Positions 2,585 to 30,606 of a DNA stretch of 51,115 nt are shown one piece after another. The position numbers and the translations under genes are program-made. A model generated the notes under the pieces. That model was not told the origin of the DNA and did not search any database. It saw nothing but the letters and a program-made list of their open reading frames with translations. Position 1 is the first letter of the stretch. The number at the start of each line of letters is the position of its first letter. Source of the stretch: Deltaproteobacteria bacterium (GTDB lineage: Bacteria; Desulfobacterota; Desulfarculia; Adiutricales; Adiutricaceae); the NCBI GenBank assembly GCA_031279515.1, contig JAITII010000024.1:1-51115 (forward strand), given 5' to 3'.

Positions 2585-3793
2585 ATGCCTCTTGTAACCC
2601 GCAGCGAAGATTTCAACGATGTTGTAATTAATCTTTCCAATTTAGTTAACAACTACAAAGTATTAAGTGAATTCGCCCAGCGACCTTTAATGTGCGTCAT
2701 CAAGGGCGATGCGTACGGTCATGGACTAGTGGATTGCGCCAGAGCCCTTGTAGATGCCGGGGCCACCTCATTTGGTGTCCTGGATGTAACCGAGGGCGAG
2801 ACCCTCCGCAAGGCAGGAATCAGAAACCCGGAAATTTATGTGCTCTCAGGGCTGGACACGGAACTTATGGTGGCAAGGGCTATTAACAATAGGCTTACCA
2901 TCTATTCCTACAGCATGGATGAGCTGGCTCTTTTAGGTAGCCAAGCCCGCAGGTCCTCCTCTCCCTTAAATGTGGTCCTAAAGATTGATTCCGGCATGGG
3001 CCGCTTGGGAGTTCCCTGGCACCAAGCCGATGATTTTATCAAAAAAGCCCTGGAATTTTCTTCCCTCAAGGTAGTTGGCTTGGCAACCCATTTGGCCACT
3101 GTGGGGGATAAGGAATCGGTAACTCAGCTGGAGCATTTCTGGGACTTCTGCACCAAGGCTGAATACCTTTTAAATACCCCGCTGCAAAATAGCGCCTTAT
3201 CAGGGGCAGGCATCTTAGCCCATCCCAGGTATCCAGACGGACTTTCAAGGCCTGGGTTGATCCTCTATGGAGTACCCCCCTTGGTGGATTTAGATCGCAC
3301 CTATCTGCTGCCCGCACCTTGGCTCAACAGCCCCAAAGCCCCTGTTTTCCGCGTTAGCTCCGAAAAGGTGGCTCAGGTCCTCTCATCCTTAAAGCCTGTG
3401 ATGCGGGTCACTTCCAGAGTAATCCAGGTCAAATCCTTGCGCAAAGGCGATACTGTGAGCTACGAGCGCACCTATACCGCTCCCAATACCACCAAGATTG
3501 CTATTGTGCCTTTTGGCTTTGTCCACGGCTTCGATATCAACCTTTCCGGCAGGACCCATGCCCTTATTAGGGGCCAGTTTGCCAGACAAATTGGTAAGAT
3601 CTGCATGAACCTTTCGGTCTTTGAGGTAAAGGATATCCCCGGAGTGGCAACTGGAGACGAAGTGGTCTTCTTAGGTTCCCAGAAAGATAAAAACTTAGAT
3701 GCCTATCTTGAGTTTGAGGGCCGCACGGAACACCCCCATCAAGTCTTGTGTCTGTATGGCCGCTTAAACGTTAGGCGCTGCATCCGCTCATAG
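2585..3793 (+). CDS. alr: Alanine racemase
   Basis: This enzyme interconverts L- and D-alanine with pyridoxal phosphate to supply peptidoglycan precursors in the cytoplasm. The PLP lysine is in VIKGDAYGHG (about residue 39; most homologues have K-A-N-A-Y). The second catalytic residue, tyrosine, is in VSYERTY near residue 292. Other landmarks are KIDSGMGRLG, GLATHLA, RPGLILYG and KICMNLSV. At 402 residues it is slightly longer than usual, with an insertion rich in Pro/Ser around 235-265. AAGGA precedes the ATG by about 7 bases. It lies 57 bases before argS. The stop is TAG with an in-frame TAA five codons later, relevant because this genome decodes some UAG as pyrrolysine. Confidence 0.9.
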   Translation: MPLVTRSEDFNDVVINLSNLVNNYKVLSEFAQRPLMCVIKGDAYGHGLVDCARALVDAGATSFGVLDVTEGETLRKAGIRNPEIYVLSGLDTELMVARAINNRLTIYSYSMDELALLGSQARRSSSPLNVVLKIDSGMGRLGVPWHQADDFIKKALEFSSLKVVGLATHLATVGDKESVTQLEHFWDFCTKAEYLLNTPLQNSALSGAGILAHPRYPDGLSRPGLILYGVPPLVDLDRTYLLPAPWLNSPKAPVFRVSSEKVAQVLSSLKPVMRVTSRVIQVKSLRKGDTVSYERTYTAPNTTKIAIVPFGFVHGFDINLSGRTHALIRGQFARQIGKICMNLSVFEVKDIPGVATGDEVVFLGSQKDKNLDAYLEFEGRTEHPHQVLCLYGRLNVRRCIRS

Positions 3794-15349: not shown

Positions 15350-18300
15350 TCAAGATAAAAGACCAAAAAATTTATCAAAAAAAAGTTTAAGTTTATCGAT
15401 AACTCTTTCTTTCATTGCTGCTCTGTTAGCATCTTCGCTAAACCTAGAGACAGGAGGAAGCAGACTGTCAATTTCAGTACCTGTCATTCTTAGATTTCCA
15501 TCCTGAATAGAATTTTCGATAAATTGGTGGGTTTCTTTATCTTTAAGATTTTCTTGTTTAATTATGGCAGAAATATCTTTTTCAAAGTTTTCTTTGATAA
15601 ACATTTCCCACTGAAAATCAACATCTTGAACTGGATCAATTATTTCTATAAATTTTTCGATCAAATATTTTATTCTGCGAAGTTGAGTGCTTGAGTCAAC
15701 AGCTTTCTGAATAGTTTCAAGTATTTCTTTATCCTCGCAGTGTCCTTGGTGATATCGAGCTACCAGCAATAAAATGTAATCAATAGTTACTTCAACATGT
15801 TTTATTAATTCTATTTCGAAAATAATGTCATCGTGAACTGTCTGAGTACATTTTTCGTGTTTTCCACTAAATTTATCATATAAGTCAAGATATCTACTTT
15901 GGTAGTCTTGAAATTCTCTTTCTGACAATATTTCATTTCCACGAAACTCATCAAAAGCATGCAGTATATTTTTTAAGCGAAGTATTGAACCGTAAAGATT
16001 GATAAAGTCTTTTTCGTTTTGTTCTCCAAGTATTGGAGAATTTAGAGGAAATTGATTCTTTAAATCGTCTATGAGCTCTTGGTAGCCATTTACATGGTTA
16101 CCATTTTTATCATTATAACCATAATAATAATCGTTGTAGGGTCTTAAAAGAAGTATTCCACCTGCGTCCTTGTTACCAAAAAGTGCAAGTGCGACATCCA
16201 TTTCCTTTTTGATATCACGAAAACATACGATATTTCCAAATGTCTTAACAGAATTTAAAATACGATTTGTTCGTGAAAATGCTTGCATTAGCCCATGAGA
16301 TGACAAGTTCTTATCAACCCAGAGTGTGTTCAATGTAGTTGCATCAAATCCTGTTAAAAACATGTTTACAACTATTAACAAATCAAGCTCTCGTTTTTTT
16401 ACTCTATCGGAAATATCTTTGTAATAATTTTGAAAATTGTCACCTTTAGTACTAAAAGATGTATTGAACATCCTATTATAGTTACTGATTGCGTTATCTA
16501 GAAATTCTTGTGAAGTCTTATCAAGCTTGTCTAAGTTGTCAGGGTCAAGTCCCTCTTCAAGAATTCCTTCTTCTGGGTCGTCTTCGTTTGCACTGTAGCT
16601 GAAAATAATGCCAATTTTAAGGTCTTTACTATTTTCTTGGATCTGTCGCATTAGTTCAGAATAAAATTTTTTAGCCATGTCAATGGAAGATACTGCAAAA
16701 ATTGAATTGAAGCCATATTGTCGTTTGCCTTGAATACTATACGAACTATTCCTACTAGTTTTTTGATCAAAGTGCTCTAGGATATATTCTGCCACAAGTT
16801 TGATTCTTTGCGGCGCTCCTAATGCAGCTTTATAGTTATTGACGTTAACTTTTGATTCATCATCTGGACGTTTAATTGTGTTTAAAAATTCTACTCTGAA
16901 AGGAAGTACATTTTGATCATCAATGGCATTAACAACAGTGTAGGTATGTAGTTTATCACCAAAAATCTGGTCAGTGGTAGTGAGATCAACATCACCTTTA
17001 CCTTTGGCATTTGCTACAAAAATAGGTGTACCTGTAAAACCAAAAATATGGTATTTTTTAAATGATTTGACGATATTAGCTCGCATTTGTCCAAACTGAG
17101 AACGATGACACTCATCAAATATTAAAACTAGATGACTTTTGTAAATTTCGTGATTTACATTGTGTGTTATGAATCTGTCTAATTTTTGGATAGTAGTAAC
17201 AATAATCTTGGCATTTGGGTCTTCAAGTTGTTTTCGTAGTTTGTTGGTTGATGTGTTGCTGTTCGCAGCACCTTTTTCAAACTTATCATACTCTTTCATT
17301 GTCTGATAGTCTAGATCTCTTCTATCAACAACAAAGATAACCTTATCTATTGGAACTTTAGTTTGAAGCTCACACGCTAATTGTGAAGCCTTAAATGAAG
17401 TTAAGGTCTTGCCTGAACCAGTAGTGTGCCATATATATCCGCCAGCTTCAGTAGTCCCTAATTTTTTGTCATAGCTTGAAGATATTTTTATACGATTGAG
17501 AATTCGTTCTGTAGCTGCAATCTGGTAAGGACGCATTACTATAAGAATGTTTTCTGTTGTAAAGACGCAATAACGAGTCAATATGGCAAGCAAAGTGTGC
17601 TTGCTGAAAAAAGTCTTGGTGAAATCAACAAGGTCAGGAATACGGTTATTGTTAGCGTCTGCCCAATAACTGGTGAATTCAAAGCTATTGCTGGTTTTTT
17701 TGCTCTTGCTCCTACCTCCTGCATCTTGTTCTTTGATGTGACTTTCACGTGTAGTATTGGAGTAATATTTGGTTTCAGTTCCATTGGAGATGACAAAGAG
17801 TTGCACATAGTCAAAAAGTGATGCTCCAGCCCAAAAACTGTCACGTTGGTAACGTTTTATTTGGTTAAAAGCCTCTTTGAGAGCGACACCTCTACGTTTA
17901 AGTTCCACGTGCACTAATGGCAGTCCATTAACGAGAATGGTAACATCATATCGATTTTGACGGGTTCCTGTCTGCTCGTATTGATTAATAACCTGAAGGC
18001 TATTTTCGTGTATTTCTTTCTTATTGATTAGTCTGATATTCTTAGTAGTTCCATCATCTCGTCTTAGAAGTTGAACAAAATCTTCTTGAATTTTTTTTGT
18101 CTTTTCTACTATACCTTCATTCTGATTTGAAATAACTTCTTTAAAAAAATGCTCCCATTCGTTTTTAGAAAAAGTTAAGCCATTCAGACGTTCTAATTGC
18201 TCTCGCAGGTTTTGTTTAAGATCCGTTTCATTATTGATGTTTAAGTATTGATAACCTTGTTCTGTTAAGTGGGCAATAAAATCTTGTTCAAGCTCATATT

Positions 18301-18391
18301 CACTTTGATAAGAACCAGATTTATCTTTAATTGGTGTATACTCAGAAACAACAGTTTCCTCATCAGTTTGTATGATGATGTTGTAGCTCAT
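15350..18391 (-). CDS. hsdR: Type I restriction enzyme R subunit (HsdR)
   Basis: This 1013-residue motor/endonuclease subunit has an N-terminal nuclease region with LVHVELKRRG (about residue 165). Walker A is WHTTGSGKT (about 320-332), the DEAD-type box is LIFDECHRSQFG (about 422), and helicase motif III is FGFTGTP. Late helicase motifs include FLTGFDATTLNTLWVDK and QAFSRTNRI. Its start overlaps the end of the hsdS remnant as ATGA. Composition is clearly more AT-rich than the metabolic genes around it, suggesting horizontal acquisition. Without a working HsdS the complex cannot recognise DNA unless HsdS is supplied from elsewhere. Confidence 0.92.
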   Translation of the reverse strand: MSYNIIIQTDEETVVSEYTPIKDKSGSYQSEYELEQDFIAHLTEQGYQYLNINNETDLKQNLREQLERLNGLTFSKNEWEHFFKEVISNQNEGIVEKTKKIQEDFVQLLRRDDGTTKNIRLINKKEIHENSLQVINQYEQTGTRQNRYDVTILVNGLPLVHVELKRRGVALKEAFNQIKRYQRDSFWAGASLFDYVQLFVISNGTETKYYSNTTRESHIKEQDAGGRSKSKKTSNSFEFTSYWADANNNRIPDLVDFTKTFFSKHTLLAILTRYCVFTTENILIVMRPYQIAATERILNRIKISSSYDKKLGTTEAGGYIWHTTGSGKTLTSFKASQLACELQTKVPIDKVIFVVDRRDLDYQTMKEYDKFEKGAANSNTSTNKLRKQLEDPNAKIIVTTIQKLDRFITHNVNHEIYKSHLVLIFDECHRSQFGQMRANIVKSFKKYHIFGFTGTPIFVANAKGKGDVDLTTTDQIFGDKLHTYTVVNAIDDQNVLPFRVEFLNTIKRPDDESKVNVNNYKAALGAPQRIKLVAEYILEHFDQKTSRNSSYSIQGKRQYGFNSIFAVSSIDMAKKFYSELMRQIQENSKDLKIGIIFSYSANEDDPEEGILEEGLDPDNLDKLDKTSQEFLDNAISNYNRMFNTSFSTKGDNFQNYYKDISDRVKKRELDLLIVVNMFLTGFDATTLNTLWVDKNLSSHGLMQAFSRTNRILNSVKTFGNIVCFRDIKKEMDVALALFGNKDAGGILLLRPYNDYYYGYNDKNGNHVNGYQELIDDLKNQFPLNSPILGEQNEKDFINLYGSILRLKNILHAFDEFRGNEILSEREFQDYQSRYLDLYDKFSGKHEKCTQTVHDDIIFEIELIKHVEVTIDYILLLVARYHQGHCEDKEILETIQKAVDSSTQLRRIKYLIEKFIEIIDPVQDVDFQWEMFIKENFEKDISAIIKQENLKDKETHQFIENSIQDGNLRMTGTEIDSLLPPVSRFSEDANRAAMKERVIDKLKLFFDKFFGLLS

Positions 18392-18756
18392 TGTGCCCTC
18401 CTGAAGATAAGCAACTTGTCTCGATAGTATTCGTATTGCTTGCGTCTAGCATTTATATCAGCTGGTACTTCTGAAGTGAGGTCTGTTGTTAAGGTATCGA
18501 AAATGTCAAAAATTAAAACGATTATGTTTTGTTCACGGTGAGGATACTGAAATAGATTAGTTTTTAACCACCTCTGGATTCAAATCACAACGCGCACCAT
18601 TTCCAAGTGCTTTAAACTTTTGATATCGGTAAAAATACCGAAATAAGTGTATATTTGGCCAAAATGAATACATCATACACCACTTTCTTCATCTAGTAGT
18701 AAATATTTTACAACCGTAGGACTTAACTCTTGTATAAGACTATCAACTGCTTTCAT
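18388..18756 (-). pseudogene. hsdS: hsdS remnant: specificity subunit with both target-recognition domains lost
   Basis: The remnant starts with ATG overlapping the hsdM stop (ATGA) and reads [20 protein letters not shown], the usual HsdS N-terminus, then stops after 28 codons. The last 150 bases, in a frame opened after a TGA, read HREQNIIV, then FDIFDTLTTDLTSEVPADI and NARRKQYEYYRDKLL, the conserved C-terminal spacer of HsdS. It ends with a TGA overlapping the hsdR start. About 370 bases remain of a gene normally near 1.2 kb; the target-recognition domains are missing and frames are broken. Confidence 0.85.
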
Positions 18757-20324
18757 GGATGTACACCTTCAATCTCTGAGATAATCTTATCAATTTCTAC
18801 TCTTAGTAAATTCTCTCGCTGAACAATCTTTTCTATTTCTGCGTTCAAAGCCTTGATATTGACAACTTGACGTGTATCTTTCTGTTCCACATAAGAACTT
18901 ACAGTTAAGTTATAATCTTTAGCTGCAACTTCACTATTTGCAACTAGTTTACAAAAGTGGTCAATATTTTGTCTTTCAGTAAATACTTTTAAAATGTTGG
19001 CAATATTACCATCTGTTAGTTTGTTGTTGTTTGTTACTTTAATAAATTCCGCGCTGGCATCAATAAAAAAAGTACTGTTTCCACGTTTAGACTTCTTAAG
19101 AACCATAATACAAGTTGTTATACTTGTACCAAAGAATAAATTTGCAGGAAGTAAAATCACACAATCCACAAAGTTGTTGTCAACTAAATACTTACGAATT
19201 TTCTGCTCTGCTCCACTCCGATATAAAATACCAGGAAAACAGACAATAGCTGCCGTGCCGTTAGTTGCAAGCCATGATAAGCTGTGCATGATGAATGCAA
19301 GATCAGCTTTGGATTTTGGAGCTAAAATTCCTGCTGGAGAAAACCTTGTATCATTGATCAACAATGGATTATCGCTGCCTTCCCATTTAATACTATAGGG
19401 AGGATTTGAAACTATGGCTTCAAAAGGTGCATCATCCCAATGTTGAGGGTCAGTTAGAGTGTCTCCATGTGTTATATTGAACTTGTCATAATTTATGTCA
19501 TGAAGAAACATGTTGATACGGCATAGGTTATAAGTAGTGATATTGATTTCTTGACCAAAAAAACCCTGACGGACTTTATTTTGACCAAGTATTTTGGCGA
19601 ATTTGAGAAGTAATGATCCAGAACCACATGCTGGATCGTAGACCTTATTGACTTTAGTCTTGCCAACAAGAGTTAACCTTGTCAAAAGCTCAGACACTTC
19701 TTGAGGTGTGTAGAATTCGCCTCCTGATTTACCAGCATTACTTGCATACATGCTCATAAGGTATTCATAGGCATCGCCGAAAGCATCAATGGTGTTGTCC
19801 TGGTAATCACCCAGTTTCATTTCACTTATGCCATTCATGAGCTTCACAAGGCGTTCATTCCGTTTTGCTACTGTACTTCCTAATTTATTGCTGTTGACAT
19901 CAATATCTGCAAAAAGTCCGTCAAAGTCATGTTCACTTTCATAACCTCTAGCAGATGATTCAATGTTTTTAAAGACTCGTTCAAGAGTTTCATTTAAATT
20001 ATCATCATTATGGGCTTGTTTTAACACATTTTCAAACAACTCACTGGGAAGAATGAAAAAACCTTTGGTTTCAACTATTTCTTTTTTAGCTTTTTTAGCA
20101 GCACTGTTTGACAATTTTGTATAATCAAATTTTGTGTCACCAGCTTCATGTTCTCCTGAATTTATGTAATTTGTAAGGTTTTCCGAAATGAACCTATAAA
20201 ACAACATTCCAAGAACATATTGTTTAAAATCCCAGCCATCTACACTTCCACGCAAATCATTGGCAATAGACCATATTGTTCGGTGAAGTTCAGCTCGTTC
20301 CAATTCTTTTTTGTTATCTTTCAT
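18753..20324 (-). CDS. hsdM: Type I restriction enzyme M subunit (HsdM)
   Basis: This is an N6-adenine DNA methyltransferase subunit of about 523 residues. An N-terminal HsdM helical domain (about 10-140) precedes the N6_Mtase domain. The SAM-binding motif is [15 protein letters not shown], and the catalytic motif is SNPPYS near residue 308. A TTG at 20339 would add five residues, but the ATG at 20324 is preferred. Its stop overlaps the hsdS remnant start. With HsdS destroyed, it is probably inactive on its own, though many free-standing HsdM need only an HsdS in trans. Confidence 0.92.
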
Positions 20325-20339
20325 GTGGTTATGTCCCAA

Positions 20340-21583: not shown

Positions 21584-22360
21584 TTATTTTTTTCTCATTG
21601 AGTGCAATAGACGACGGAGGATATTACGCCTCTTATAAGGGTCACATTTCATTAGCTCCATCTCTAAGGCAGCACCCATTTGTCTTCCACTTTTACAGTA
21701 ACTGCATGTTTTTTTGCTGGAAAGACAATTATCACAATCTTTTGCTGATAATGATTCCTGTTTGTTAGTAACCAGAAAAAATCCTGCGTAGCTTTTAACT
21801 GGAATCATAAGCCCCCCTGGTCTTATGGTGGCTCCTATCTTGTCAGCCTCCAAGACCTCAAAAAATTTCAAAGTATCAGAGCCGGGCATTCCGAAAAACC
21901 CTGGTCCAAAGGTGTCTGAGATGGCAAAAGTCTCATAAGAAATGGTTTTTGTAATGTGCTCTTGCAATAAATCTCTGGCAACGTCAACAAATGCCGTCTG
22001 CCACATGTCTTGGTATACTTGATACAAAACTCTTTCGTTAGTTGGTTTTATGTCACCAATTGTTAACAAATAAATGATTATTTCTAAAATATCTTGGCTT
22101 GGAATCGTGGAAATGATAGGACAAGTAAAAGTTACATTGTCTAGAATTAGTTTATCACCCTTTATACAATTCCAGTCATATCTTGAAAAGATTGCATTTA
22201 TATCAATATGCTCGTAAATATCTTCTAAAGTGGTAAGGCTTTCCTCCAAAAGACGCGGGCTAATATCCTTGCGCCTATATAGGCCGCAAATATCCATAAA
22301 ATATTCCTTGGCTTTGGCCTCTCCATCATTTTTATCCAAATGAACTACAATATTTTTCAT
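21584..22360 (-). CDS. Corrinoid-reactivation-like protein (methionine synthase activation domain family)
   Basis: This 258-residue protein resembles the activation domain of cobalamin-dependent methionine synthase. The core SDTFGPGFFGMPG, then IGATIRPGGLMIPVKSYAGF, matches the family pattern (PGY-G ... IG-LT-S-MM-P-KS-SG). A C-terminal C-x2-C-x6-C-x2-C cluster (DCDNC then CSYC) could hold a metal or Fe-S centre. Free-standing members occur with corrinoid methyltransferases and are thought to re-reduce inactive Co(II). Here it follows mtmB by 288 bases on the same strand, so reactivation of MtmC is a reasonable inference. It is not the RamA iron-sulfur protein of methanogens. TAA stop. Confidence 0.65.
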   Translation of the reverse strand: MKNIVVHLDKNDGEAKAKEYFMDICGLYRRKDISPRLLEESLTTLEDIYEHIDINAIFSRYDWNCIKGDKLILDNVTFTCPIISTIPSQDILEIIIYLLTIGDIKPTNERVLYQVYQDMWQTAFVDVARDLLQEHITKTISYETFAISDTFGPGFFGMPGSDTLKFFEVLEADKIGATIRPGGLMIPVKSYAGFFLVTNKQESLSAKDCDNCLSSKKTCSYCKSGRQMGAALEMELMKCDPYKRRNILRRLLHSMRKK

Positions 22361-22648: not shown

Positions 22649-24037
22649 TTACTTCCAGTAGTTAAGCCCCAGATCAGTCATGATCTTTATGGCTTCGTTG
22701 TAAACTCCAACGTATTCTTCGGTGGGGATCAAGGTAACTGGGTCATAGCACTCGTCGAAGGGTTTTCCCTCGGGTGCTGTCTTGTACTTACCTTCGTACA
22801 AGGATACCAGTTTGTCCAACATAATGTTCACCTGGTGGAGATCCATGCCGGCGACTCCGTGGGCTACTTCGCCCATGAAGCGAGCTTCCATGGCGGTGAA
22901 CATATCGGTTAAGACGCCCTTGGCAGAGGCGACGCCGGAGAGGACTTCGCGTCCGCTGGCGGTGTCAGTTATGCTCTGGGCAGCTGTCTCTAAGAGACAC
23001 ATAACCGTGCAGGGTCCGGCCAGGGTGTAGTACTGGTTGCCGGACAAGATGTGGGTATTTTCTTCGACTGCTCTTCCCGCGTGGCCTGCTACCGCCAGAG
23101 CCTCTCTGGCTGTAGTGATGCCCCAACGGACGTGAACAGGACCATCTAAATGCCAGGTCCCTTGCATCATAACAAAGGTGTTCAGGGTAGTAGCCACGTC
23201 CACGATCGCCGTCTCTTCCAGACCTCCGGAATAACCGCCGAAAATGGGCATTTGCTCGACCATGACACACTGTCCCGATAATGCGTAGTAGCCACCTACG
23301 ATCAACGCACCTACGTCGATCTTGAGCTCATTTAGCTGGGACACCTCATGGGAGTCGGAAGGCCTCATGCCTCCTAAGAAGTCCGAGGCGATGACGCCAG
23401 CCGGACTTAAAGAAGTCTCGCTGCCCTACAATCCCATGCCGGCCCGGCCAGCTCTGCTCATGGCTTCACGCACCTGCAAGAGTTCCGAACGGACCGCCAT
23501 AATCTCCCAAGGAGACTCAGGCACAGGATCCTTGCCTAACACTGTCTGGAGGACGCCGTTGACTATGGTGTCGCAGATGGGCTCCTGGGCATAGGACTGA
23601 TGGATGGCTAAAAAGTATTTCTCAGAGCAAGGAGAGCCTGTGGGGCCTCCCTGGATGACCGGAGGCAGAGGGCTGTTGTAAGGACGCTCCACCACGTTAA
23701 TGGCCTCTTGGTCTTCCCCAAAGGTGAAATGCCTGGGGGCGTTCTTAATAGCCGTCAGGACTTCGTCCCTGGTGTACTTGATAACCCTATTGGTATCGAT
23801 GCAGTAAACGCCGCATTCCACCAACATGTCCACTCCAGCTTGGAAAAGAGTGTCGATGAGGGTCTTGTCCTCAGGGATCATGACCTTGGGGTCCATTTTG
23901 ATTTTGTATTTTTCTTTGAGCTTCTTGGCGACAGTGGGGATCACCCCAAAATCCCAATCGGCTTCAGCCATTTCGGGCCCGGATTTGGCCCGGTCATAGA
24001 CGTCAAAGACGGAAACCGGTTTGGCAATAGCTTGCAT
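22649..24037 (-). CDS. mtmB: Monomethylamine:corrinoid methyltransferase with pyrrolysine (UAG) at residue 204
   Basis: It moves the methyl group of monomethylamine to the cobalt of MtmC. The reading frame is split by one in-frame TAG (23426-23428). The two halves (203 and 258 residues) join into a 462-residue protein that matches methanogen MtmB end to end (458 residues). Around the amber, RAGRAGMGL-UAG-GSETSLS matches the archaeal RPGMGV-O-GPETSLS. Other conserved stretches are QGGPTGSP, DSHEVSQLNELKID, EQMPIFGGY, WHLDGPVHVRWG and LSGNQYY. The start ATG lies one base after the mtmC stop. A hairpin follows the amber by 17 bases. The real stop is TAA. Confidence 0.95.
23379..23408 (-). promoter_or_regulatory. 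Hairpin downstream of the mtmB amber codon (PYLIS-like candidate)
   Basis: In the mRNA, AAGUCCG pairs with CGGACUU, and inside this GGCG pairs with CGCC around a UCAU tetraloop. It begins 17 bases after the UAG. A stem-loop at this place was described in methanogen mtmB and called PYLIS. Whether it is needed for pyrrolysine insertion is disputed, and the sequence also encodes conserved protein. Confidence 0.5.
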
Positions 24038-24038
24038 G

Positions 24039-24698
<660 letters not shown>

Positions 24699-24937
24699 AT
24701 TGAAGTACCTCCTTAAATACTCGACTTGCAAATGGGGTTCATGGATCATTGGCGAGGCCAAAAAGAGCTCAATGGGAAAACCAGCTTGGTTTTATTGGGC
24801 CTCTTTAAAGCCTCTCATTTTTCACATTTTTTTCTTTCGGCTCTCGATAAGCTCTTTGGTAAGATCTTGCGAGTTTTTTGAAAGTCTTGCTTTTTACTTA
24901 AGAGTGGTAATCTTAAGTAAATTGCTAATTGTTATCT

Positions 24938-24953
24938 AGCAAGATTCGAGCCA
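24938..24953 (-). promoter_or_regulatory. Sigma-54 (-24/-12) promoter candidate for mtmCB
   Basis: The minus strand reads TGGCTCGAATCTTGCT. It matches the TGGCACG-N4-TTGCW consensus at every fixed base but one, with the essential GG and GC at correct spacing. It points at mtmC, leaving an untranslated leader of roughly 230 bases. Confidence 0.6.
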
Positions 24954-25042
24954 ATCCTAAATTCTCAAAAGCTATTTATTATGGGGCATGAGGTCGGCCA
25001 AGCTGGGTTAAAAATGAAACAAAACACCCCAACAGTTTGGGC

Positions 25043-25062
25043 TTGTATCATTTTTAATACAA
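25043..25062. repeat. Small inverted repeat upstream of mtmC
   Basis: TTGTAT and ATACAA are separated by eight bases. It lies between the sigma-54-type promoter and the large palindrome and may be an accessory binding site. Confidence 0.3.
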
Positions 25063-25108
25063 TAAAAGTCCTTGTGTATTTGCCATTTTTAAGAATTACT
25101 GTTGGTTT

Positions 25109-25139
25109 TGTAACAAAAATGACAAACATTTTTGTTACA
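25109..25139. promoter_or_regulatory. Perfect palindrome, candidate activator site (UAS)
   Basis: TGTAACAAAAATG and its exact complement flank five bases (13-bp arms). It lies about 160-200 bases upstream of the sigma-54-type promoter of mtmC, the usual place for an enhancer-binding activator. A cognate regulator is not in the window. Confidence 0.55.
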
Positions 25140-25140
25140 T

Positions 25141-25155
25141 GTTCGAAGTGCGAAC
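25141..25155. promoter_or_regulatory. Second inverted repeat next to the UAS candidate
   Basis: GTTCG-AAGTG-CGAAC begins one base after the large palindrome. Its different sequence suggests a second protein, or a spacer element in the same control region. Confidence 0.35.
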
Positions 25156-25690
25156 TTATTTTGAGCTAGATCAAATGTTCATTCGTCCATAATTTAGAAT
25201 TAATGTTTCTATATATTGTAGATAATTTTTTTTGAATGACTAAATATCCTAGATGCCAAAATATGATTAGGTTAATTATTATATTTTAGCTATATAAAGT
25301 CTTAACAAGAATTAAAGTTAATTATAAAGATTTTATATCGATATTTAAAGCTTGGAATGAAACTATTATACTAAAAATATTTATAAAAACAAATTAGAAA
25401 GTTATTATACTTATAAAATAATAATTTTATAAGTTAATGTGGTCCATGCGCCTTAGAAACTATTATATATACATTTTTTTTAGAAGACCTCGTTTAGAGA
25501 CTATTTTTTCAAAAAATGCAAGTAGCTACAAGAGTTTTCACTAAATACCCTCTAAAAGGAATCCTTAAGCTTCCGGGTTGGCTAAGGAACTAAAGGTCTT
25601 GAAAAACCCTTTAAAAAGGCTTGTATATTATGCTTTTTGATAGACCCCGGGGTAAGCGCTAATTCTTTTAAATAGCCATCTTTACGGCCT

Positions 25691-25706
25691 TGGCATATGT
25701 TTTGCT
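25691..25706 (+). promoter_or_regulatory. Sigma-54-like box pointing towards pylD
   Basis: TGGCATATGTTTTGCT keeps GG and GC at the right spacing and differs from the consensus at two fixed bases. It is more than 1 kb from pylD, so a link to that gene is doubtful. Confidence 0.25.
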
Positions 25707-25937
25707 TACTTTTTAGCTCAGCCTGAAAGGCCCAGAGCAACCTGGGCTGTCAAGTTGATTTTTTAGCAGAGAAAAAAAGGCAAAAAAGATTTTTGCATGA
25801 AAAAAACTTTTTTGCGCTTGAACTTCCATTTTCTTGAGCCTAGAAATCTTTTTTTCTAACCTTGAAGCCGACTTTTCGGGTAGCTTCAGAGGCTTTTTTA
25901 GGGTTCAGATTGTCTTTTTTGCTAATTTTGCCTTTTT

Positions 25938-26080
25938 AAGATCAAAACGTAGAAAGTCCCAGGCTTTATTATTTTTTAATAATACTTAGGATACTTCGGT
26001 AATTGTCTAATTAACTTTGGTATTTTATAGCTTACATGGGGACATAATCAGACAGTCCCGATTTTCTACGTTTTGATCTT
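25938..26080. repeat. 143-bp element with 18-bp terminal inverted repeats (MITE-like)
   Basis: AAGATCAAAACGTAGAAA at the left end is repeated exactly in inverse orientation at the right end (26063-26080). The interior is AT-rich and non-coding. The size and ends fit a miniature inverted-repeat element or internally deleted insertion sequence; target duplications are not obvious. Confidence 0.5.
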
Positions 26081-26098
26081 TTTTGAATTTCAGAGTGC

Positions 26099-26114
26099 TT
26101 TGACATATGTCAAA
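26099..26114. promoter_or_regulatory. Perfect 16-bp palindrome upstream of pylD
   Basis: TTTGACATATGTCAAA is fully self-complementary without a spacer. It is a plausible dimeric regulator site; the regulator is unknown. Confidence 0.35.
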
Positions 26115-26319
26115 ACCCTGGAAGCTATCGGGATACATTTACCGGGTTGTTGTTGCCATCATTTCTCCTTTCAATGGTTGTGAGTTCACAATCCCGGTTT
26201 ATCTACCTTAGATTTTATCCTGATAGATTGGCTCTCTTTTCAGATGATATGATTCATTTTAAGTTTTTGACTGGAACTTAAAGTGATGCCTTCACGGCAT
26301 GAAAAAACCTTTGTGGGTT

Positions 26320-26358
26320 AAAGTTCTCCCCGTTGGCACCATCTTCAGGGAGAACTTT
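26320..26358. terminator. Hairpin in the spacer upstream of pylD
   Basis: AAAGTTCTCCC and GGGAGAACTTT pair perfectly over 11 bp around a 17-base loop. No adjacent gene explains it. It may be a terminator of a lost gene or of a small transcript. Confidence 0.45.
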
Positions 26359-26739
26359 AGCCATTAACTCACCTTAAGATTGTCAAGGTGATTTTATGAA
26401 GATTTTACACTCCGTAGAAATATATTAATTTAATGGGAATTTTCAATCTTGTAATAGGGAACTGTGATGATCTTGTAGACAATTTTTAGCTTTTTGTGGG
26501 CATTACTTATGTAAATAGAGCCCAATATTAAGTTGACCCATTAAACCCTTTCAATGCCAATGAGGTACTTAAAGAGGCTTTTAAAGCCTTTAGACTTTGG
26601 CGACGACTCTATGACCTCCCTTCTATGGGAGTAACAATTGTATCTCAATTGTAAATATGCGTTCATTTGTCGAGTCTTGGCTTCAATTTGGAACGCTTAT
26701 CCAGGGGGCGTATTACTTACCTCCCTTAGGAGCCTTGCC

Positions 26740-26764
26740 TGAAAGTTTTCATTCCAACTTTCAA
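26740..26764 (+). promoter_or_regulatory. Hairpin just before the pylD ribosome-binding site
   Basis: TGAAAGTT and AACTTTCA pair over 8 bp and end a few bases before the AAGGAG that serves pylD. It could influence translation initiation or stability. Confidence 0.35.
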
Positions 26765-26778
26765 ATTAAGGAGCTCTT

Positions 26779-27669
26779 ATGACTTGCCTTAGATCCCAAG
26801 ACTTAAAAACAACTTTATCATCCCAGGATATCAGCAATTATTTGTCTCATTACTTGAACTGCGACATCTTCACTTTGTCTGGAAGGGCATGGGATATGGA
26901 CGCTGAATTTTTGGAGCAAAAGCTGAGCGGACAAAAGTTAGCAGTTATCAAGATCACTTCCGACGATGACTCTAATGATGCTTTTTTAGAAATTTTAGCA
27001 AGCGTTGGAAAGATCATGGGAGTTGATGCGAAAGTCATGGATCAAATTGGTGATGATGGCTTCAAACAAGCAGAACAATGGGGTGCAGATATTTATACGT
27101 TTTCCAATGATTCTGATTTTGTGGCTCGAAATTTGAACGCCGACCGCGTAATCCACAGTAATCCAGCATCATCCCGTATTTTTGTGGCAGCGTTGGAGAT
27201 GTTAAATGGAGGAAGTCTTAAAGGAGAACAGGTCTTAGTCTTAGGCCTTGGTCCAGTTGGGTATTTTGCCACAGAAAGGCTTTTAGAGCTGGGCGCCCAC
27301 CCTGTGGTTTATGATATCAGCCAAGCGCGAAGTATTTCCCTTTATAAAATACTCCCTGAAGTGGATATCTTGCTGAAAGACACAGATTTAGAAAAAACTC
27401 TTTTGCATAATCGTGATCTTCTTATTTTCGAATCAGTGCCACAAAAGAACATCCTTTCCGAGGAGACCATGCAAAACATATTTTGCCAGGTTACTCCCAT
27501 TGTTTCTGCCCCTGGAGTCCCTCTGTCCTGGCCAGAAAATTGGTTGTGGAATGAAACACCACCCAGGCTTTTTCATGAACCTTTAATGATGGGTACGGCA
27601 TCTATGTTAGCTGGACTTTGCAACGAAGATTACGACCAAAGATATGCTTTATCGTACCCTTTACCTTAA
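26779..27669 (+). CDS. pylD: Pyrrolysine biosynthesis dehydrogenase PylD
   Basis: PylD oxidises the terminal amine of (3R)-3-methylornithyl-N6-lysine, which then cyclises to pyrrolysine. The 296-residue protein has a Rossmann core with VLGLGPVGYFATERLLELG near residue 155 for NAD binding and the family tail LFHEPLMMGTASMLAGLC. It is somewhat longer than methanogen PylD (about 260). AAGGAG sits 7 bases before the ATG. It is the first gene of a pylD-tRNA-pylSn-pylB unit. pylC, which makes its substrate, is not in the window. Stop TAA, no internal amber. Confidence 0.88.
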   Translation: MTCLRSQDLKTTLSSQDISNYLSHYLNCDIFTLSGRAWDMDAEFLEQKLSGQKLAVIKITSDDDSNDAFLEILASVGKIMGVDAKVMDQIGDDGFKQAEQWGADIYTFSNDSDFVARNLNADRVIHSNPASSRIFVAALEMLNGGSLKGEQVLVLGLGPVGYFATERLLELGAHPVVYDISQARSISLYKILPEVDILLKDTDLEKTLLHNRDLLIFESVPQKNILSEETMQNIFCQVTPIVSAPGVPLSWPENWLWNETPPRLFHEPLMMGTASMLAGLCNEDYDQRYALSYPLP

Positions 27670-27723: not shown

Positions 27724-27797
27724 GGAGAGCGGATCGCTAATTGATCACGCAGACTCTAAATCTGCGCAGCCGGGCGGGACACCCGGGCTCTCCGCCA
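27724..27797 (+). tRNA. pylT: tRNA-Pyl, anticodon CUA (amber-decoding)
   Basis: The 74-base gene folds as follows: acceptor GGAGAGC/GCTCTCC; D stem GATC/GATC; anticodon stem GCAGA/TCTGC with loop CTCTAAA (anticodon CTA); three-base variable loop GCA; T stem CCGGG/CCCGG; discriminator G and an encoded CCA. Only one base separates the acceptor and D stems, a hallmark of tRNA-Pyl. The anticodon loop and the GCAGCCGGG stretch closely match the methanogen tRNA. It lies between pylD and pylSn and may be processed from the same transcript. Confidence 0.96.
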
Positions 27798-27898: not shown

Positions 27899-28264
27899 AT
27901 GGTCGAAAATATTAATACCAAGAGGGTAGCCAAAAGATACTACCGCAAGAAAAATACTCTTTTCTCTTTATTGGATAAGATTAAGCTCTGGCCCTCCAGA
28001 ACCGGTAGGCTACACGGACTCAAAACCATCGAGCTCAAAGGTGAAATAGCTACTCTTACGACTCATTGCGGAGAAACATACAGCATTCGTAACTCGCGCA
28101 ACAGTAGAGCAGCCAGATGGCTCCGCAATAAGTTTTACAGCTGCACCTGTTCCAAGTGCCGCATACCGGACTGGAAATTAGAAAAATACGGGCAGACTTT
28201 TTTTAGTCGGGCATACGGTAGTTTCCTCAAAAAATCAACCAGAGAGGAATACTATGCGCCCTAG
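27899..28264 (+). CDS. pylSn: Pyrrolysyl-tRNA synthetase N-terminal subunit PylSn
   Basis: In bacteria the pyrrolysyl-tRNA synthetase is split. This 121-residue subunit binds tRNA-Pyl and assists the catalytic subunit PylSc. Family landmarks are RYYRKKNTLFSLLDKIKLWPSR (residues 13-34), THCGETY and SRNSRAARWLRNKFY (66-80). Zinc-binding His/Cys residues lie in THC (55-57) and CTCSKC (82-87). It overlaps pylB by 11 bases, which implies coupled translation. The catalytic pylSc gene is not in the window. The protein is about 10-20 residues longer than typical PylSn. Confidence 0.93.
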   Translation: MVENINTKRVAKRYYRKKNTLFSLLDKIKLWPSRTGRLHGLKTIELKGEIATLTTHCGETYSIRNSRNSRAARWLRNKFYSCTCSKCRIPDWKLEKYGQTFFSRAYGSFLKKSTREEYYAP

Positions 28265-29315
28265 ATATACAGAGCTATTGTGCAAATCCCTAAATCAGGA
28301 TTCCTTAGTATCCAATGAGATTGAATATCTTCTCACTCCATACTCGCAAGATGAAAGAGAAGCATTATACAAATCCGCTCAAATAATGAGGGAGCAATAT
28401 TCCGGCAATCTAATTTATACTTATGGATTTGTCTATTTATCGACCATCTGCCGAAATGATTGTCTCTTTTGCGCTTGGCGCCGGTCAAATCCAAATTCTG
28501 TAAGATACCGCAAGACAAACGCTGAGATTGTGAGTGCTGCCCAAACCCTTGTAGACCAAGGAGTGAACCTCATAGATCTTACCATGGGAGAGGATCCTGA
28601 TGTGGATAAGAGGAGTTACTTGGAAAGCACAGCTGAGCTCATATTGGATGTTCGGAAAAGGACGGGCGTCCCAGTCATGATCTCCCCCGGCTTGGTTCCT
28701 TCCTATGGTTTGGCCCTTTTCCGCGAAGCCGGAGCCTTATGGTATGCCTGCTACCAGGAGACTCACAGCCCGTTTCTTTTCGCTCAACTCCGCAGCGGTC
28801 AGAGTTATGAAAACCGCTGGCAGGCAAAATTGGAAGCTAAAAAGACCGGACTTTTAGTTGAAGAAGGAGTCCTTTGTGGTGTCGGTGAAAGTGCCAAGGA
28901 CCTGGCCAATTCCATTTTAGCTATGAAGGAGTTGGCGGCTCCCCAGGTTCGGGCCATGGCTTTTGTGCCTCCCCCTAGTAGTCCCAAGTGGATGCCTGAA
29001 AAGCCATCCGAACTTGCCAGACAAAGGGAACTGGATATGATTGCAGTCTTAAGGCTTTCATTTCCTCATACCCTTATACCTGCCTCATTGGATGTAGAGG
29101 GGTTATCAGGTTTATCTGACCGTTTAACTGCCGGAGCAAACCTTATAACCTCCTTTGTGCCCAGTGACAAGGGTTTAGCTGGCGTGGCCCAAAATGATTT
29201 AGATATTGGCAATGAAGGGCGCTCAGTTCAAGCAGTCCTGCCCATCCTGGAAGAGATGGGTTTAACCCAGGCAACTAACGCCGATTACCTTGAGAAAGTA
29301 ATGGCCTATGCCTAA
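28254..29315 (+). CDS. pylB: Methylornithine synthase PylB (radical SAM)
   Basis: PylB is a radical S-adenosylmethionine mutase that rearranges lysine to (3R)-3-methylornithine, the first step of pyrrolysine synthesis. The 4Fe-4S cluster cysteines are C66, C70 and C73 in ICRNDCLFCAWRRSN. Further landmarks are LIDLTMGEDPDVD, MISPGLVP, YQETHSPFLFAQLR and VPPPSSPKW. At 353 residues it matches the family. The gene overlaps pylSn and is followed after 79 bases by the Rh-type channel gene. TAA stop. Confidence 0.93.
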   Translation: MRPRYTELLCKSLNQDSLVSNEIEYLLTPYSQDEREALYKSAQIMREQYSGNLIYTYGFVYLSTICRNDCLFCAWRRSNPNSVRYRKTNAEIVSAAQTLVDQGVNLIDLTMGEDPDVDKRSYLESTAELILDVRKRTGVPVMISPGLVPSYGLALFREAGALWYACYQETHSPFLFAQLRSGQSYENRWQAKLEAKKTGLLVEEGVLCGVGESAKDLANSILAMKELAAPQVRAMAFVPPPSSPKWMPEKPSELARQRELDMIAVLRLSFPHTLIPASLDVEGLSGLSDRLTAGANLITSFVPSDKGLAGVAQNDLDIGNEGRSVQAVLPILEEMGLTQATNADYLEKVMAYA

Positions 29316-29394: not shown

Positions 29395-30606
29395 ATGCTA
29401 AAAAAATCTCTTTTCATTATGGCGTTCTGTATGACCGCCCTCATCTCCACAGTCGCCTTAGGTGCCGAAGTTTTAGGATCTCCTATGGATACCGCAATGC
29501 ATAATAAAAACCAAAATATTTGGTTTATGCTTATGCTTGTGGCATTTTTAATGATCTTTATCCGGAAGTTTGAATGGGGGGTGTGTTTAGCTACTATTTT
29601 ATGCTCCGCCTCTACATTTCTGGTGTACATGGCACTTCAGGAATTCATTATCCTACGCAATCCAGCCGAGGCCTGGTCTCAAAATATCATGATAGCTGGG
29701 GTAGTTTGCGCCATTACCTTAGTTATTGCCATCGGGGTGTTCGTTGGCACCCTCCAGTCCTGGCTCTATATACCACTGGGCATTCTTTTTGCCCCTTGCT
29801 ATATAGGGATGGAATATATTCTTTTTACCGGTATCCCCAACCTGGCACATGGTCCAGTAACCGATCCCGGCGGCGGCATCTTAGTCCACCTTTTCGCCGC
29901 TTACTGGGGTTTGGGGATAGCCTTGGCCATCCGAGAAAAGCGTGTCTTTGATGAGCCTATGTTTACCAGTAAACATAGTGTTACTTTCGCCTTTCTTGCG
30001 GCAATGCTACTATTTATCTTATGGCCCTCTTTCGTTACAGCCACCATGTCTTTGGAAGAATCCACATCTGTTATGGCAAACTGCTACATGTCGGGTTTTG
30101 GCTCTATGTTGGCGGCCTTCGTAACATGCCGTCTCGTGGGCAAAAAGATAAATCCCTTGGTCTATATGTATGCCATGTTGGCAGGTCCCGTAGGAAGTAG
30201 CTCCAGTCTACTTTTGACAGGGCCCTGGGGATCCTTGGTAATTGGCATTGTGGCAGGTAGCCTTAGCGCTTTGGCTTTTACTTACCTCCAGCCACTTATG
30301 AGCAAAAAACTTGGAGTCGTCGATGTCATGGGCGTTCACCAGCTCCATGGAGTTGGAGGTTGGGTGTCGCTTGTGGGCGGGGCCATTTTAGTCGGTAGTG
30401 GAATCAATATCTTGGCGGGCTTTGCAACTGTTGTCTGGGGAATCATAACCGGCCTTATTGCTGGTTATGTGATTAAGGTTATGCGCGGACATATGGAGGT
30501 CATCTTTAGCGATGAGGCTGAATTTGATGGGCATTGTCCGGACCCCAACCCAGAGGTTGCGGACACCAGTAAAGCGAATGTCTACGGTTTAAATACCGAA
30601 TCCTAA
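29395..30606 (+). CDS. Ammonium/methylammonium channel, Amt/Rh family (Rh-like)
   Basis: This 403-residue protein has a cleavable-looking N-terminal signal (LFIMAFCMTALISTVALGA) and about eleven membrane segments. The first pore histidine is in GILVHLFAAYWGLGIAL near residue 164, where Rh proteins have the VH-x-FAAYFGL pattern. The second is in VMGVHQLHGVGG near 317, again the Rh form VH-x-LHG. Amt/Rh channels carry ammonia and also methylamine. Sitting 79 bases after pylB and opposite mtmCB, it probably imports monomethylamine or handles the ammonium released from it; this is inference. GGATAGG precedes the ATG. Confidence 0.82.
   Translation: MLKKSLFIMAFCMTALISTVALGAEVLGSPMDTAMHNKNQNIWFMLMLVAFLMIFIRKFEWGVCLATILCSASTFLVYMALQEFIILRNPAEAWSQNIMIAGVVCAITLVIAIGVFVGTLQSWLYIPLGILFAPCYIGMEYILFTGIPNLAHGPVTDPGGGILVHLFAAYWGLGIALAIREKRVFDEPMFTSKHSVTFAFLAAMLLFILWPSFVTATMSLEESTSVMANCYMSGFGSMLAAFVTCRLVGKKINPLVYMYAMLAGPVGSSSSLLLTGPWGSLVIGIVAGSLSALAFTYLQPLMSKKLGVVDVMGVHQLHGVGGWVSLVGGAILVGSGINILAGFATVVWGIITGLIAGYVIKVMRGHMEVIFSDEAEFDGHCPDPNPEVADTSKANVYGLNTES

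Follow-up and report, generated by a model that had tools for sequence, protein, structure and literature searches.

Does the in-frame amber codon of a bacterial monomethylamine:corrinoid methyltransferase gene (mtmB) end the protein, or is it translated as pyrrolysine (Pyl)? The question is raised by a Desulfarculia-class bacterium, in a 51,115-nucleotide contig that we call the window. An earlier reading made from the letters alone (the sequence-only reading) had correctly placed mtmB at 22649–24037, without stating the strand, which is minus, and had described a single TAG within an otherwise intact MtmB, a description that we can confirm. With TAG read as sense, mtmB is a single frame of 462 codons that runs from an ATG to a TAA (24037 to 22649). 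The only in-frame stop inside it is the TAG at 23426–23428 (minus strand, read 23428 to 23426), which is codon 204, and there is no other lesion. The protein matches the Pfam MtmB family (PF05369) over positions 1–450 of 450 (697 bits; E = 1.4e-209) and the Methanosarcina barkeri MtmB1 structures 1tv2 and 1l2q (E about 1e-168). In the alignment with M. barkeri MtmB1, the TAG faces residue X (pyrrolysine) of 1l2q and 1nth, and thus lies at the methanogen Pyl position, as had been claimed. We take E229, E259 and Q333 to be active-site residues of M. barkeri MtmB1; their counterparts in the window protein are aligned and conserved, as is their neighborhood.

We found the same codon in distant homologues, and selection that continues past it. 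A scan for close relatives, keeping one genome per species, yielded six bacterial mtmB loci in MAGs labelled Coriobacteriales, Coriobacteriia, Peptococcaceae (two) and Synergistaceae (two), which belong to three phyla other than that of the window. All six proteins are 65–81% identical to window MtmB, and the single in-frame stop of each gene is a TAG that aligns with codon 204 (TAG in 7/7 sequences of the codon alignment, counting the window). Between the window gene and one of these homologues (L010), pN was 0.22 before the TAG and 0.16 after it, with pS of 0.71 and then 0.73, and third-position changes predominate on either side. In the codon alignment, synonymous sites are near saturation while amino-acid-changing sites are constrained, after the TAG as much as before it or more. 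Since the constraint beyond the TAG is at least as strong as that before it, neither a decayed tail nor a sequencing error can yield this pattern. The nearest MtmB relatives presumably come from termite-gut samples, judging by isolate names, which suggests, no more firmly than as a guess, that the window organism belongs to a gut-associated family such as Adiutricaceae. We also noted that mtmB in two of the homologous loci (L010, about 3319–3339; L011, about 2310–2321) appears to terminate in TAG too, with another stop a few codons on, so that TAG would there appear to serve as both sense and stop codon within one gene.

Within the phylum of the window, an MtmB-family match was present in 13 of 395 sampled genomes, and a TAG-bearing gene only in the window genome and in one other (G403), where the TAG lies in the same mtmB context, though the gene is split in two pieces. 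MtmB homologues from the window's own order (G006, G020 and G038) were considered as Pyl proteins and rejected, as they have no TAG; those of G006 and G020 are only about 30% identical to window MtmB. No TAG-bearing mtmB was found among the other relatives searched in the Desulfarculia-class lineage, and pylSn was present in 17 of 118 related genomes sampled. The class was assigned through G024, a genome of the same class that encodes a protein 100% identical to a superoxide reductase sequence matching PDB 2ji1, the enzyme of Desulfarculus baarsii; on that basis the window falls in Desulfarculia.

TAG is an ordinary stop codon in this genome, where it terminates 31 of 123 other sampled long ORFs. 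Because about a quarter of other genes end in TAG, UAG has not been reassigned wholesale, and some truncation of MtmB at codon 203 is to be expected. In this ORF sample, mtmB and mttB were the sole readthrough candidates. Three further ORFs with long extensions past a TAG (L088, L093 and L094) were rejected: that of L093 enters the next gene in frame, and those of L088 and L094 run into sequence that looks non-coding. Downstream of the mtmB TAG, an Rfam search for a PYLIS-type element (RF01982) gave no match. The single-sequence fold in this region is modestly stable (z −2.2), and a consensus fold of seven sequences gave no support for conserved RNA structure (covariation term −0.04; 1 of 19 pairs compensatory). 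PYLIS is held to be helpful but not essential (PMC3639795).

The gene mtmB is adjoined by mtmC (24039–24698, minus strand), which encodes the cognate corrinoid protein, with a DxHxxG motif and a match to TIGR02370 (pyl_corrinoid) of 234 bits against a cut-off of 215. The sequence-only reading had further proposed that tRNA-Pyl and pyl genes lie nearby; this holds for pylT, pylD, pylSn and pylB, all on the plus strand of the window, but pylSc and pylC are absent from it. The genes pylD (26779–27669), pylSn (27899–28264; TIGR03912, 123 bits, cut-off 51) and pylB (28254–29315; TIGR03910, 390 bits, cut-off 348) are each second copies in the genome; pylSn encodes the half of the split pyrrolysyl-tRNA synthetase that binds the tRNA, and pylB a methylornithine synthase with its CxxxCxxC motif. 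PylD (TIGR03911, E = 4.6e-35) scores 121 bits against an equivalog cut-off of 150, and both genome copies, which are 46% identical, fall below that cut-off; the E-value of about 1e-35, the PylD_N domain and the cluster context identify it despite the score. In a Peptococcaceae MAG (L014, 7196–7879), we saw two stops inside the pylD frame.

Other genes around mtmB were also identified. A probable (methyl)ammonium carrier of the Amt family is encoded at 29395–30606 (plus strand; PF00909, E = 3.6e-29), and Amt homologues sit just upstream of mtmCB in the two Synergistaceae loci (L013 and L015). Directly downstream of mtmB, at 21584–22360 (minus strand), is a gene for a 258-amino-acid protein with a Cys-rich CxxC...CxxC tail that matches no family above threshold; a 60% identical copy on contig C125 likewise lies 3′ of a second mtmB, and the protein is possibly a corrinoid-protein helper. 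The 2 kb between mtmC and pylD (24762–26778) are partly AT-rich and hold no convincing gene; they may contain divergent regulatory regions. Farther away (15350–20339) lie large helicase-like and N6-DNA-methyltransferase-like genes that by eye resemble HsdR and HsdM of type I restriction-modification systems.

The tRNA-Pyl gene of the window, pylT (27724–27797, plus strand), was located by hand from its sequence and cloverleaf. It has a CUA anticodon, a 6-bp anticodon stem, a 3-nt variable loop and an encoded CCA; all 22 of 22 pairs of the tRNA-Pyl pattern are formed, and the predicted cloverleaf has a folding energy of −32.9 kcal/mol (z −3.0). ARAGORN and Rfam with default settings reported no tRNA-Pyl in the window, nor did ARAGORN with laxer thresholds. 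Among 22 tRNA-Pyl genes that we collected, the acceptor and anticodon stems vary by compensatory changes. A search of the genome for the exact tRNA-Pyl pattern returned two copies. In a related genome (L078, 5397–6003; G040), a tandem pair of tRNA-Pyl genes lies about 0.5 kb apart, with differing anticodon stems.

The missing genes, pylSc (261 bits) and pylC (296 bits), both above their cut-offs, lie elsewhere in the genome, on contig C31. This contig carries a complete cluster in the order mttB(TAG)-pylSc-pylD-pylT-pylSn-pylB-pylC (L023, 5843–12004). Its mttB has one in-frame TAG, at a position common to four related genomes, and matches TIGR02369 (trimeth_pyl) with 653 bits (cut-off 525). 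The gene order recurs in relatives L068, L069, L071, L072 and L078, although pylC of L071 is cut by a contig end and L068 holds only the end of mttB. Genome-wide, then, every part of the bacterial Pyl system (pylB, C, D, T, Sn and Sc) is present, with two copies each of pylT, pylSn, pylB and pylD and one each of pylSc and pylC.

In the pylB tree, the two copies group as sisters (support 94/89) within the clade of their own family, and the duplication therefore most likely occurred within the lineage of the window; the pylSn tree gives no resolution on its origin. Between copies, pS is about 0.8 and pN 0.22–0.40 in all three duplicated protein genes, and with synonymous sites saturated and fewer protein changes, both copies are old and maintained. 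Since pylSc and pylC are found only on C31, the window genes pylD-pylT-pylSn-pylB must cooperate with that locus. By these comparisons, the window set is a partial, old and selectively maintained duplicate that relies on C31. The co-occurrence of the two loci rests on the binning of an assembly that is 94% complete and in 148 contigs. A mis-binned window contig was considered and is argued against by three observations: it carries the genome's sole argS, which is closest to those of same-family genomes; its G+C content is 43.8%, similar to the 44–48% of other sampled contigs; and the pylB copies are sisters.

Assembly also bears on the TAG itself, which could in principle stem from faulty sequencing or assembly, or from the collapse of two mtmB copies into a chimera. 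A second mtmC-mtmB copy does exist, in pieces that lie at contig ends, on C25 (L024) and C125 (L025), and it breaks around a missing middle that corresponds to window positions 22862–23619 and includes the TAG; this interval may be a collapsed consensus of the two copies. The assembled flanks of the second copy, however, agree with the window (99% amino acid identity in the 5′ part of mtmB), and an error that falls on a Pyl codon also present in independent assemblies is not credible. A sequencing error, which the sequence-only reading had named as a refuter, is thus very unlikely given homologues with the same TAG, and to an artifact of either kind we assign next to no probability. Upstream of the second mtmCB copy, C25 carries a RACo-type corrinoid activator gene with one internal TAA.

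The TAG might instead be a true stop, in which case mtmB would be a decayed pseudogene or the source of a 203-amino-acid fragment. TAG is, after all, a common stop here, and decayed relatives do exist in the genome, as an mttB remnant with one TAG and three TAA codons demonstrates. Nevertheless, the absence of a second lesion across 462 codons, the strong purifying selection past the TAG, the identical TAG in homologues from four other lineages and the complete pyl machinery in the genome all speak for a decoded codon, and we consider a true stop highly improbable. It is slightly more improbable still that UAG is read with a different residue, by a near-cognate or an ordinary amber suppressor tRNA, given that a tRNA gene bearing every hallmark of tRNA-Pyl lies at a distance of 4 kb together with its cognate pylSn, that the genome has pylB, C, D, Sn and Sc, and that the site is the known Pyl position. 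Readthrough as pyrrolysine, as the sequence-only reading had it, is the best reading because homologues share the TAG at the Pyl site, purifying selection continues downstream and the genome holds a full pyl gene set. Thus, as judged from these comparisons, we are strongly confident that mtmB is functional and that its UAG codon 204 encodes pyrrolysine.

From the position of the TAG, the constraint around it, the gene and tRNA content and the two loci, we infer charging, readthrough, enzyme activity and transport along the following route. PylB, PylC and PylD would convert lysine to pyrrolysine, which the split synthetase PylSn plus PylSc would load onto tRNA-Pyl(CUA). Competing with release factor, the charged tRNA would decode the UAG of mtmB and likewise that of mttB, encoded elsewhere in the genome. 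MtmB would then demethylate monomethylamine, with MtmC, the corrinoid protein encoded beside it, as methyl acceptor, and the neighboring Amt-type carrier may import the substrate. More tentatively, the second, ancient pylD-pylT-pylSn-pylB set might be dedicated to the monomethylamine locus, with one PylSc common to two PylSn and two tRNA-Pyl and with UAG decoding tuned separately for MtmB and MttB; we regard this as a possibility with the odds against it.

The window system resembles that of M. barkeri MtmB1 (1l2q, 1nth, 1tv2) in its full-length homology, the aligned Pyl, the conserved active-site acids and Gln, and the adjoining gene for the corrinoid partner; it differs in being bacterial, with a split PylSn/PylSc in place of the single-chain PylS of the archaeon. 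Pyl-containing bacterial MtmB is known from Acetohalobium arabaticum and Desulfotomaculum acetoxidans (PMC3941956), which share with the window an mtmB with an in-frame amber codon and a split PylRS; those species, however, are Firmicutes, whereas the window is from Desulfarculia and its pyl set is partly duplicated. Bilophila wadsworthia (PMC7593587) is likewise deltaproteobacterial in the older sense and, presumably like the window organism, from the gut, with a full pyl set and Pyl in its trimethylamine methyltransferase. Bilophila MtmB, though, has been published as lacking an in-frame TAG (PMC7593587; PMC3941956), so that the comparison with Bilophila-type MtmB suggested by the sequence-only reading was mistaken for this gene; in the window genome, mtmB and mttB alike carry the TAG. 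Marine Deltaproteobacteria with a dual code expansion also use Pyl and share the machinery, but mtmB goes unmentioned in the main text of that report (PMC8318568). More than one pyl set per genome has been seen in Methanomassiliicoccus luminyensis, with two pyl clusters (PMC3941956), and in one archaeon with two PylRS/tRNA pairs (PMC9071458). In those archaea the synthetase is duplicated, whereas here pylT, pylSn, pylB and pylD are doubled and pylSc and pylC are single. We found no paper that describes this lineage in the literature outside subscription journals.

Pyl-containing MtmB in bacteria was thus already known, and what is unusual here is the partly duplicated layout over two genome sites; the least ordinary feature is the second pylT, pylSn, pylB and pylD set that uses a common pylSc and pylC. 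Standard annotation would cut mtmB and mttB into fragments and so hide the methylamine metabolism of this organism. The doubled pylT and pylSn with a lone pylSc amount to a natural experiment with the split synthetase, and the organism offers a natural case for how UAG divides between stop and pyrrolysine. Read in this way, the locus would extend pyrrolysine-dependent use of monomethylamine to a Desulfarculia-class lineage.
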